In this document: piece by piece, positions 43,864-47,792 of the stretch
Position numbering within the stretch: the first letter of the stretch is position 1
Layout: each line of letters starts with the position of its first letter
DNA from: Antrihabitans stalagmiti
GTDB lineage: Bacteria; Actinomycetota; Actinomycetes; Mycobacteriales; Mycobacteriaceae
NCBI RefSeq assembly: GCF_016482825.1
Contig: NZ_JAEMNV010000008.1
Location: 1-64,000, forward strand
Length of the DNA stretch: 64,000 nt
Direction: 5' to 3'
Made by a program: the position numbers and the translations under genes
The notes under the pieces: model-generated
The model's database searches: none
What the model was told of the DNA's origin: nothing
The model's input: the letters and a program-made list of their open reading frames with translations, nothing else

Positions 43864-46023
43864 CTACTTCACTCCGGCAGCATCCATTCCGCGTAGTTCC
43901 TTCTTCAGGTCGTGAATTTCGTCGCGTAGTCGACCCGCCAACTCGAACTGCAGTTCTCGTGCGGCGTTCATCATCTGATCGGTCAGCGACTTGATCAGGT
44001 CGGCCAGTTCGGCGCGCGGCATCGACTTCACATCCTGGCCTTCGTAAACACCCGCGCTGACTGCACGCCCAGGCTCGCCTTGTGCACGCCGACCTCGGCT
44101 TGCGTTGCGTCCGGAACCACCGATCGCAACGTCGGTGTCGTCGGCCTCTTCGTAAACCTGGTCGAGGATGTCGGCGATCTTCTTTCGCAGTGGCTGCGGA
44201 TCGACTCCCATCTCGGTGTTGTAGGCGACCTGCTTCTCGCGTCGGCGTTCGGTCTCTTCGATCGCCATCGCCATCGAGTCGGTGATCTTGTCCGCGTACA
44301 TATGGACCTCACCACTCACGTTGCGGGCGGCGCGGCCGATCGTCTGGATGAGGCTGGTGCTGCTGCGAAGGAAGCCCTCTTTGTCGGCGTCCAGGATCGC
44401 AACCAAGGACACCTCGGGAAGGTCGAGACCTTCTCGAAGCAGGTTGATACCGACCAGAACGTCGTACTCGCCGAGTCGCAGTTGCCGCAGCAGTTCGACG
44501 CGTCGCAACGTGTCGATCTCCGAGTGCAGGTATCGGACTCGTATGCCGAGCTGCAGCAGGTAGTCGGTCAGATCCTCCGACATCTTTTTCGTCAGTGTGG
44601 TCACCAGAACGCGCTCGTCTTTCTCGGCGCGCTCTCGGATCGAATGAACGAGGTCGTCGATCTGACCCTTGGTCGGCTTCACCACGATCTTCGGATCGAC
44701 CAGACCTGTCGGGCGGATCACCTGCTCGACGAACTCGCCGCCGGCCTGACCGAGCTCGTACTTGCCCGGCGTCGCCGAGAGATACACAGCCTGCCCGATT
44801 CGGTCGGCGAACTCCTCCCACGTCAACGGCCGATTGTCGACCGCGGACGGCAGCCGGAACCCGAACTCGACCAGGTTCCGCTTACGCGACATGTCACCCT
44901 CGTACATGCCACCGATCTGCGGGACTGTCACGTGTGATTCGTCGATGACGAGAAGGAAGTCTTCCGGGAAGTAGTCGATCAGTGTCGCCGGTGCTGTGCC
45001 TGCAGCGCGGCCGTCGATGTGGCGCGAATAGTTCTCGATGCCGGAGCAGAATCCGACTTGGCGAATCATCTCGAGGTCGTACTGGGTACGCATCCGCAGA
45101 CGTTGCGCTTCGAGGAGCTTGCCCTGCTTTTCGAGTTCCGCGAGGCGGCCTTCCAGCTCGGATTCGATGTCGCGAACCGCGCGTTCCATCCGCTCCGGAC
45201 CTGCGACGTAGTGCGTCGCGGGAAAAATTCGCAGCATGTCGACCTGCCGGACAACATCACCGGTGAGGGGATGCAGGTAGTACAGCGCCTCGATCTCGTC
45301 GCCGAAGAATTCGATACGAACGGCCAGCTCTTCGTAGGACGGAATGATCTCGACGGTGTCGCCGCGGACTCGGAACGAGCCACGTACGAACGACAGGTCG
45401 TTTCGGGTGTATTGCACGTCGACGAGCAGGCGCAGCAGGTCGTCACGGTTCACCTCGGCACCGACTTCGAGCTGGACGGACCGGTCGAGGTAGGACTGGG
45501 GGGTGCCGAGGCCGTAGATGCAGGACACCGAGGCGACCACGACGACGTCACGACGAGAGAGCAAGCTGGACGTTGCGGAGTGCCGCAACCGCTCGACGTC
45601 GTCGTTGACGGAGCTGTCCTTCTCGATGTAAGTGTCGGTCTGGGCGATGTACGCCTCGGGCTGGTAGTAGTCGTAGTAGGACACGAAGTACTCGACAGCG
45701 TTGTGCGGCAACATCTCTCGCAACTCGTTGGCCAGCTGCGCTGCGAGCGTCTTGTTCGGAGCCATCACGAGTGTCGGCCGTTGCAACTTCTCGATCAACC
45801 ACGCCGTCGTCGCGGACTTACCGGTGCCTGTCGCACCGAGCAGGACAACGTCCTTCTCCCCCGCGTTGATCCGGCGTTCGAGGTCGGCAATGGCGGCCGG
45901 CTGATCACCGGCAGGCTTGTGTTCGCTGACAACCTCGAAGCGACCTTCGGTGCGTTCGATCAGCTCGCCGACCGGACGATGCTCCGAGTGGGCGAGGAGG
46001 TGCTTTTCTGTTGGAAACGCCAT
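43864..46023 (-). CDS. uvrB: excinuclease ABC subunit B
   Basis: Damage-verifying helicase-like subunit of nucleotide excision repair, 719 residues. It shows Walker [11 protein letters not shown] near residue 45, the beta-hairpin region [20 protein letters not shown], helicase motifs through [20 protein letters not shown], and the C-terminal UVR domain ([20 protein letters not shown]). The ATG is six bases after a TAGGCT -10 box, so the transcript is probably leaderless. Confidence 0.98.
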
Positions 46024-46029
46024 TGCACA

Positions 46030-46052
46030 AGCCTATGCCGACCCACCGACAC
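46030..46052 (-). promoter_or_regulatory. DNA-damage promoter of uvrB (RecA-NDp/PafBC type)
   Basis: The minus strand reads GTGTCGGTG, eight bases, then TAGGCT. This matches TTGTCRGTG-N8-TANNNT at all but the first base. TAGGCT is six bases from the uvrB ATG, implying a leaderless, damage-inducible transcript. Confidence 0.8.
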
Positions 46053-46168
46053 GTACCGCTCGGCTGCCGCAGCGACCGTGCTGACCTGCAAGTAAATCGA
46101 TTGCACCATCGCGCCGCCCGGTGTTAGCGTTTCGGCGATCGTCGACCCGTCCCCAGGAGGTGACACCC

Positions 46169-46228
46169 ATGAACGTTGTATCCACAGTGGGCGCTCCCCT
46201 ACCGATCACGATCGCGCGACCGACGTAG
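46169..46228 (+). CDS. leader peptide upstream of the patatin gene
   Basis: A 19-residue ORF (MNVVSTVGAPLPITIARPT) with a perfect AGGAGG eight bases upstream, better than that of the gene it precedes. It ends 47 bp before the patatin start. It contains no run of a single amino acid, but prolines at positions 10, 12 and 18, including PLP and a PT end, could slow ribosomes. The RNA following it can form alternative stems (46190-46272). Regulation of the downstream gene is inferred. Confidence 0.6.
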   Translation: MNVVSTVGAPLPITIARPT

Positions 46229-46272
46229 TCGCCGCTGGGAGCGCCTGAGAACGCAATTCGTGAAAGGCGACT
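46190..46272 (+). promoter_or_regulatory. mutually exclusive RNA stems before the patatin gene
   Basis: Stem 1 pairs GGCGCTCCC (46190-46198, inside the leader peptide) with GGGAGCGCC (46237-46245). Stem 2 pairs AGTCGCC (46227-46233, at the leader stop) with GGCGACT (46266-46272), which covers part of the patatin ribosome-binding site. The stems interlock, so without a pseudoknot only one can form, and ribosome position on the leader peptide would choose between them. Confidence 0.5.
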
Positions 46273-46275
46273 CCC

Positions 46276-47190
46276 ATGAACTCAACACCCTCTGCACAGC
46301 CCGAAGCCCGCGAGCGAGCACTTGTCCTCGGTGGCGGCGGATCGACAGGCAATGCGTGGCTGATCGGCGTTGTCGCCGGCCTGTTCGATGCCGGACTCGA
46401 CGTAACCACAGCCGACCTCACCATCGGGACATCAGCAGGCTCGACCGCCGCAGCCCAGTTTGCCGGCGCCTCCCCGACCGAACTGTTCGCCGCCATCCTT
46501 GCCGCCGCGCCTGAACAGAAGGCAGGTTCGGCGGCGTCCGACCGAAGCCGCGTTGCCAGCAGGCCGGTGGCCGACCACCTGGCACGAATCAGCGCCATCA
46601 TCGCCTCCTCCGACGACATGGCCGACCTGCGCCGCAGAATGGGCGCGGCAGCACTCGACCTGGCTGCGGCGTCGGACGGCTCCTGGCAAAAACAATGGCG
46701 AGCCACTGTCGCCGCGCGACTACCAAGTCGACAGTGGCCGCAGCGAACGGTTCTCATCACGGCGGTCGATGCCCGGACCGGTGCACCGGCCGTGTTCGAC
46801 CGCCACAGCGGAGTCGATCTGGCCGATGCGGTCGCCGCAAGCTGCGCAAGCAGGCTTCCCTACCGAGTCGGCGACATCCCGTACCTCGACGGCGGTTACC
46901 GTTCCAACGCCGAAAACGCTGACCTGGCAGCGGGTTACGCGCGGGTGCTAGTGCTGGCACCCTTCGGCGGACGTGCACTCACGCCGGTGGAATGGGGCAA
47001 TCATCTCGCAACGCAGATCGACGAACTCCGTGCACACGGCAGCAGGGTCGAGACGATCAGCCCGGACGGCAGCGCCGAGCATATGTTCGGACCCAATGCG
47101 ATGGACCTGACGCTGCGACCGCCCGCTGCCCGAACGGGATACGAGCAAGGCACGGCCCTCGCCGAGCCCCTCGCCGCATTCTGGCGCTGA
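46276..47190 (+). CDS. patatin-like phospholipase
   Basis: A 304-residue acyl hydrolase with a Ser-Asp dyad. The oxyanion loop GGGGSTGNAWLIGV near residue 19, nucleophile elbow IGTSAGS near 50, and catalytic Asp in YLDGGYRSN are all present. No signal peptide or membrane span is seen, so it is cytoplasmic and probably acts on phospholipid or other acyl esters. A leader peptide and alternative RNA stems precede it. A DUF402 gene follows by 62 bp. Confidence 0.88.
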   Translation: MNSTPSAQPEARERALVLGGGGSTGNAWLIGVVAGLFDAGLDVTTADLTIGTSAGSTAAAQFAGASPTELFAAILAAAPEQKAGSAASDRSRVASRPVADHLARISAIIASSDDMADLRRRMGAAALDLAAASDGSWQKQWRATVAARLPSRQWPQRTVLITAVDARTGAPAVFDRHSGVDLADAVAASCASRLPYRVGDIPYLDGGYRSNAENADLAAGYARVLVLAPFGGRALTPVEWGNHLATQIDELRAHGSRVETISPDGSAEHMFGPNAMDLTLRPPAARTGYEQGTALAEPLAAFWR

Positions 47191-47252: not shown

Positions 47253-47792
47253 GTGCACAAACCGAAGGTCGAGTACTTCGATATCGAAGCGCGCACGAAC
47301 ACGGACCCGAAAGGTTTCGTCCGCGAGGTCGAGCAGTACCGCGTCGAACCGTGGGGCCTGTACATGGCCCGCACTGCAGACCACCATGCCTTCCACTACC
47401 TGGAATCGTGGCTGATCCCGACGCTCGGGTTGCGGGCGACGATCTTCCACTACTACCCGGAGCATCGCCGCGACCAGAACTTCTACGTCGACCTCGGCGA
47501 ATTCACTATCGGGCCAACCGTCTGGAAGTCGGTCGACCACTATCTCGACCTCGTTGTCAGGTCCGGCCGCGACGTCGAACTACTCGACCTCGACGAACTT
47601 CTCGAAGCACGGACCGCAGGATTGATCACGACAGAGGAAGCACACAAAGCCATCGAGCAGGCCTTCGTCGCAGTCGACGGTATGGCCAGCCACGATCATC
47701 GACTCGAGCCGTGGTTGGAATCGCGTGGCATCGCACTCACCTGGTCGACCGAGGTGCCCGCCCCGCCACGCTCACCCGCAACGAAAGGCTAG
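47253..47792 (+). CDS. DUF402 domain protein
   Basis: A 179-residue protein with the DUF402/FomD-like core: EYFDIEARTNTDPKGFVR, FYVDLGEFTIGPTVWKSVDHY, LDLVVRSGRDVELLDLDEL and the closing helix region. Family members include nucleotide phosphohydrolases and RNA-linked proteins, so a phosphohydrolase role is only a guess. GTG 47253 matches the usual VHxPKxEYFD start; a GTG at 47244 is possible. Confidence 0.82.
   Translation: MHKPKVEYFDIEARTNTDPKGFVREVEQYRVEPWGLYMARTADHHAFHYLESWLIPTLGLRATIFHYYPEHRRDQNFYVDLGEFTIGPTVWKSVDHYLDLVVRSGRDVELLDLDELLEARTAGLITTEEAHKAIEQAFVAVDGMASHDHRLEPWLESRGIALTWSTEVPAPPRSPATKG

Follow-up and report, generated by a model that had tools for sequence, protein, structure and literature searches.

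What is the role of a short open reading frame and two interlocking RNA stems ahead of a patatin-like phospholipase gene in Antrihabitans stalagmiti, and is the arrangement particular to patatins? The gene lies in the 64,000-nt stretch of DNA that was analysed (the window) and encodes a protein of 304 aa (46276-47190, plus strand, ATG at 46276; PF01734, 39.1 bits, cut-off 27.7). A gene for a DUF402 protein (64.7 bits, 47256-47789) follows on the same strand, 65 bases after the patatin gene, and may share its transcript. A first-pass annotation had described a 19-codon leader with a strong Shine-Dalgarno sequence (SD) and two interlocking stems, and direct reading agreed with every one of its coordinates. 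The leader, MNVVSTVGAPLPITIARPT, comprises 19 codons from ATG at 46169 and a TAG stop at 46226-46228 (46169-46228, plus strand). It is preceded by the SD AGGAGGTGA (46155-46163, plus strand), of which AGGAGGTG was (nearly) invariant across 32 aligned copies. Stem 1:3 pairs GGCGCTCCC (46190-46198) with GGGAGCGCC (46237-46245) and is extended by a G-U pair between 46189 and 46246, giving segment 1 (46189-46198) and segment 3 (46237-46246). Stem 2:4 pairs AGTCGCC (segment 2, 46227-46233) with GGCGACT (46266-46272). The ribosome site of the patatin gene, GAAAGG (46262-46267), and segment 4 (46266-46275) fall within 46262-46276, a region that would be hidden by pairing 2:4 or by pairing 3:4.

A perfect 9-bp stem arose in 50 of 3000 dinucleotide shuffles of 46153-46278, and the interlocking 9 + 7 pair in 0 of 3000. 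The RNA 46135-46290 had a folding z of -2.37, with 1 of 200 shuffles equally stable. The lowest-energy fold predicted for the window copy used neither stem: a third pairing, 46236-46246 with 46265-46276, in which segment 3 provides the 5' arm, covered the patatin SD and start. With nested folding, the probability of stem 2:4 in this copy was 0.00. A search of window positions 46000-46400 against Rfam 15 gave no matches at E values up to 10.

The distribution of the element was determined with a covariance model (R1) that was trained on 18 hydrolase and GNAT leaders and on no patatin leader, and that recovered the window leader at 89.6 bits. R1 had matches in 116 of 298 order genomes and in 121 of 394 class genomes, two overlapping samples that both include the window genome. 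At the level of the phylum, 11 of 198 sampled genomes matched, all of them within the class. A DNA search gave matches in 4 of 4 genus genomes and 38 of 201 family genomes, the window genome being counted in each. With one Rox leader region as the query, blastn found 32 plasmid-collection records, from Streptomyces (23), Embleya (2), Streptantibioticus (2), Arthrobacter (2), Nonomuraea (1), Rhodococcus (1, R. jostii RHA1) and Tsukamurella (1). Among the 30 blastn matches listed, the informative annotations were rifampin monooxygenase or alpha/beta hydrolase; the others had no annotation, were hypothetical or lay in an unannotated record.

For comparison, 173 copies were extracted in three sets (73 + 60 + 40), which were drawn from the best-scoring order and class loci, further places chosen by hand from these lists and some of the earlier loci, and thus are a selection of the matches; several of the hydrolase leaders used to train R1 were not re-entered. 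Based on text patterns, the downstream genes encoded Rox-type proteins (54), hydrolases (53), methyltransferases (27), patatins (23) and GNAT proteins (9), and seven were unassigned, including two GNAT-like (L085, L103), one hydrolase-like (L174) and two methyltransferase-like in the wrong frame (L167, L169). The family identities rest on example proteins: Rox-type rifampin monooxygenase (L062; NF033145, 819.1 bits, cut-off 800; PDB 5vqb, E 7.9e-206), PrmC-related methyltransferase (TIGR03704, 404.7 and 365.3 bits, cut-off 248.8) and GNAT (by Pfam). The alpha/beta hydrolase class reached no Pfam family cut-off and resembled esterase 4ao6 (E 2.7e-27).

The element was present at 11 of 13 patatin loci of at least 56% identity (one of the two misses begins at a contig end) and at 0 of 17 more distant patatin loci at E below 0.001. 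When 30 Rox loci were fetched by family, the element stood ahead of the gene in only two (L250, L255), which contradicts a simple rox leader; L228 carried one on the opposite strand. With hand-matched coordinates, 10 of 46 Rox rows bore a leader, all ten at 792 to 847 bits. The Rox gene of the window genome itself (L241, C23:210781-212193, 872.5 bits) had no leader match. These comparisons indicate that the leaders form a genuine, widespread family of a regulatory type already known: likely gene switches that recur in actinobacteria before five unrelated enzyme genes. The first-pass annotation, which had described the design for the patatin gene, was right in structure and too narrow in scope, patatin being one among five downstream families. 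No recognisable description of the leader element was found in the open-licence literature.

The first-pass annotation had also expected the base pairing to be conserved. In our test, the duplex formed by the two segments of one copy was compared in energy with duplexes of segments swapped between copies. Across 166 copies, stem 1:3 gave a z of -5.3 and stem 2:4 a z of -15.3 (-8.3 within class), with 0 of 2000 permutations as good for either stem; on 32 dereplicated copies the values were -5.0 and -4.9, respectively. Kinship among the copies is incompletely removed from these values; most rival pairings share that kinship and stayed flat. The comparison of copies thus showed the element with both stems kept through compensating changes across the leader family. 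With the register held fixed, only 16 of 115 copies formed the fifth pair of stem 2:4, and only 18-20 of 52 hydrolase copies paired at three other positions of this stem. Pairing 3:4 is the predicted lock of the window copy, yet its covariation was flat (z -0.0 over 166 copies, -1.2 on the 32 dereplicated copies). It was therefore rejected as a general lock and retained for the patatin and methyltransferase copies only. Other candidates were rejected as well. RNAalifold had suggested that the leader SD pairs with segment 3, but this pairing gave z values of 1.7 on 166 copies and -0.2 after dereplication, and segment 3 with its downstream neighbour reached -4.5 on all copies but -1.2 on the dereplicated ones. 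Pairings 1:2 (z 1.6) and 2':2 (z -1.3) were scored on the 166-copy set only; the latter looked favoured within the methyltransferase copies (-14.1 own versus -11.1 swapped) and was unsupported overall.

Leaders were mostly 14 to 19 codons long, with 17 and 19 codons being the most frequent lengths. The distance from the start to segment 3 fell into the three remainders modulo 3 in 71, 55 and 5 of 131 AUG/GUG leaders and in 25, 9 and 6 of 40 others. Nevertheless, in 128 of the 131 AUG/GUG leaders and in all 40 of the others, the leader frame ran into a stop ahead of segment 3. In the other two frames, read as far as 9 nt inside that segment, a stop occurred in 57 and 33 of the 131 and in 13 and 3 of the 40 (two copies with an unparsed start were excluded). 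The leader frame thus survives indels that shift the distance to segment 3. In three hydrolase-class copies (L124, L126, L156), the stop before segment 3 was lost and the leaders ran for 68, 42 and 40 codons.

The encoded peptide was mostly free to change. In 19-codon leaders, the ratio of nonsynonymous to synonymous changes was 3.05 versus 2.33 expected for Rox (n = 30), 3.06 versus 2.38 for hydrolase (n = 11) and 2.90 versus 2.32 for methyltransferase (n = 13), i.e. no coding constraint was detected in three of the four classes in the codon test. Only the patatin leaders (n = 14) showed a mild nonsynonymous deficit (1.75 versus 2.17 expected). A comparative check had been proposed to look for a conserved leader; the frame is indeed kept under selection, while a conserved peptide was for the most part not found. 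Since frame and stop were kept and nonsynonymous changes were not depleted in three classes, the position of the leader rather than its peptide seems to be selected. Arrest by a specific peptide is unlikely in those three classes, and for them the codon test ruled out a peptide arrest motif as the common principle. A stop-codon sensor was likewise rejected: TAG ended 24 of 27 methyltransferase leaders, but a family-based sample had TAG in 12 and TGA in 8.

To follow the effect of a translating ribosome, RNAs were folded with a ribosome footprint placed on the leader, for 22 patatin, 30 Rox, 30 hydrolase, 9 GNAT and 24 methyltransferase copies and for nested structures only. The ribosome site of the gene was hidden by predicted structure in all five classes, through 2:4 in Rox, hydrolase and GNAT copies and through 3:4 in the patatin class and in many copies of the methyltransferase class. 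Averaged over copies, the unpaired fraction of SD and start was 0.34-0.44 without a ribosome and stayed at 0.31-0.44 when ribosomes at codons 1 to 13 were included. With codon 19 in the P site, it was 0.54 for Rox, 0.54 for hydrolase, 0.58 for GNAT, 0.47 for patatin and 0.45 for methyltransferase, the last class having the smallest modelled opening (0.40 to 0.45). The window copy went from 0.27 to 0.46 with a ribosome at the leader end. The modelled opening was thus modest. The proposal that the ribosome's position on the leader selects the RNA state agreed with this folding insofar as the gene SD opened only near the leader end; the closed form of the window copy, however, was predicted to be the 3:4 pairing and not the second stem. 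Stem 1:3 was near zero without a ribosome in Rox, hydrolase and GNAT copies under nested folding, so that its role is deduced from covariation.

Taken together, the element is probably a translation attenuator that reports where a ribosome is located on a short leader. In the default state, the gene's ribosome site would be hidden by a hairpin (2:4 or 3:4, depending on the class). A ribosome arriving or lingering at the last codons or the stop would cover segment 2 along with part of segment 3, and the site would open. Stem 1:3 would compete for segment 3 and would be lost while a ribosome occupies segment 1. The sensed quantity would be ribosome arrival or dwell time and not a defined arrest peptide. 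The opening by the ribosome, the direction of the effect and the signal are inferred.

Plain translational coupling is the strongest competitor, although we consider it rather unlikely: each ribosome finishing the leader would open the site, with neither regulated pausing nor a relevant alternative RNA state. Coupling fits a frame and stop position that are kept while the peptide drifts, the very strong leader SD and the opening at the last leader codons in footprint folding, but it leaves the compensating changes that keep stem 1:3 unexplained. A drug-specific attenuator of the erm/cat kind, with an inhibitor arresting the ribosome at a defined leader peptide, is improbable. It would share the layout of erm/cat, the Rox-type products are annotated as rifampin-inactivating, and the mild deficit in the patatin leaders points in the same direction; against it, leaders of 17 and of 19 codons, which lie in different frames, are each frequent, three classes lack coding constraint, and rifampin acts on RNA polymerase, not on ribosomes. 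Least probable, by a little, is a pseudoknot in which 1:3 and 2:4 form together and hide the gene's site. Covariation of both stems speaks for it, as does the lack of any gap between segments 2 and 3 (0 nt) in 52 of 54 Rox and 46 of 53 hydrolase copies. Against it, its roughly estimated energy lay above that of the nested fold in 166 of 166 copies, and one long hairpin also accounts for the abutting segments.

The favoured attenuator may stand under stress control in some classes. Upstream of the window leader, a promoter with a WhiB7-like layout was predicted (46094-46130, plus strand; AAAT 46094-46097, TTGCAC 46101-46106, 18 nt, TAGCGT 46125-46130; score 14 of 16). Such putative layouts with a score of at least 13 were found in 4 of 9 GNAT, 17 of 53 hydrolase, 2 of 23 patatin (one being the window copy) and 0 of 27 methyltransferase copies, and in 54 of 54 Rox copies, a count that is circular because the hexamers were picked by eye from Rox copies. 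In one shuffle per class, the same score was reached by one Rox, one hydrolase and no GNAT, patatin or methyltransferase sequence. For WhiB7 promoters, an AT-rich motif is described immediately ahead of the -35 hexamer (PMC3905903), and the predicted layout agrees with the motif as described there. With a WhiB7/WblC-like promoter upstream, the device would act as a second, translational check on the translation-stress response.

In one branch of the family, the leader seems to begin at an unusual start codon. The 27 methyltransferase copies started with ATC (16), ATT (8), ATA (1), GTC (1) or GTT (1). Because its training leaders began with ATG or GTG, R1 leans against this result. When selection by R1 was avoided by taking the best 30 TIGR03704 loci by family, the element was present at 20, with ATT (13), ATC (6) or ATG (1) as the start; an in-frame stop was found in 20 of these 20 leaders, versus 5 and 5 in the other frames. 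Four of the 20 duplicated earlier copies, and the hand-merged total of 43 leaders comprised ATC (21), ATT (18), ATA (1), GTC (1), GTT (1) and ATG (1), i.e. ATC or ATT in 39 of 43 and one of the five non-ATG codons in 42 of 43. The window genome carries the element a second time, in front of a TIGR03704 methyltransferase gene and with an ATA start (L114, C1:708992-709105, minus strand). ATC or ATT also started 10 of 53 hydrolase copies. A hydrolase subclass (L154, L157, L160, L165, L166, L176) had 14-codon leaders with an ATC start and a TAG 2 nt before segment 3. A GTG inside the leader SD shares the frame of the non-AUG start and is an alternative start candidate; the data thus show a kept frame, and the non-AUG start is putative.

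IF3 is described as repressing non-canonical starts, such as infC ATC and sigR GTC in Streptomyces and infC ATT in E. coli (PMC5472188). We tentatively raise the possibility, which we rate below even chances, that the AUC/AUU leader start wires the attenuator to initiation fidelity, and that unrelated enzyme genes across Actinomycetia have captured the RNA module in its AUG/GUG form. A drop in IF3 discrimination would let ribosomes enter the leader and would change translation of the PrmC-related TIGR03704 methyltransferase. No case of a leader gated by an IF3-repressed start was found in the open-licence literature; if true, such gating would be a new way of sensing initiation fidelity.

As to how the enzyme genes acquired the element, 36 of 54 Rox proteins had at least 15 residues before the flavin-binding motif, and long Rox N termini (L038-L093, e.g. 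L072 and L073) resembled the hydrolase N terminus by eye. Rox and hydrolase proteins were joined by single-linkage clustering at E 1e-8. It looks as if the leader and the 5' end had been captured together by Rox genes. If the attenuator reading is true, a class-wide family of leader switches would be added to actinobacterial biology, one regulatory RNA would serve five unrelated enzymes, and poorly understood genes (patatin, alpha/beta hydrolase, GNAT, PrmC paralogue) would share a regulatory logic.

Among known systems, erm/cat translation attenuators consist of a short translated leader and a hairpin over the gene's ribosome site that is opened by the leader ribosome. The present element resembles them in its short leader, its hairpin over the ribosome site and, by inference, its opening by the leader ribosome. 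A translated leader is indicated here by comparison (the frame kept through indels), and the structure hiding the ribosome site by prediction in five classes and by the 2:4 covariation. Unlike erm/cat, the element has no known inducer, a mostly unconstrained peptide and five unrelated downstream families. The whiB7/wblC uORF attenuator and the uORFs of ARE ABCF genes (leaders MLV, MRS and MVGDDDISG) are likewise actinobacterial leader ORFs in translation-stress circuits; as described in PMC10727445 and PMC12421871, they act by terminator/antiterminator control, whereas the present pairing would cover the gene's ribosome site. The methyltransferase leaders share the codons ATT, ATC and GTC with the infC and sigR starts, but by the account in PMC5472188 that codon starts the protein itself, whereas here it would start a regulatory leader.
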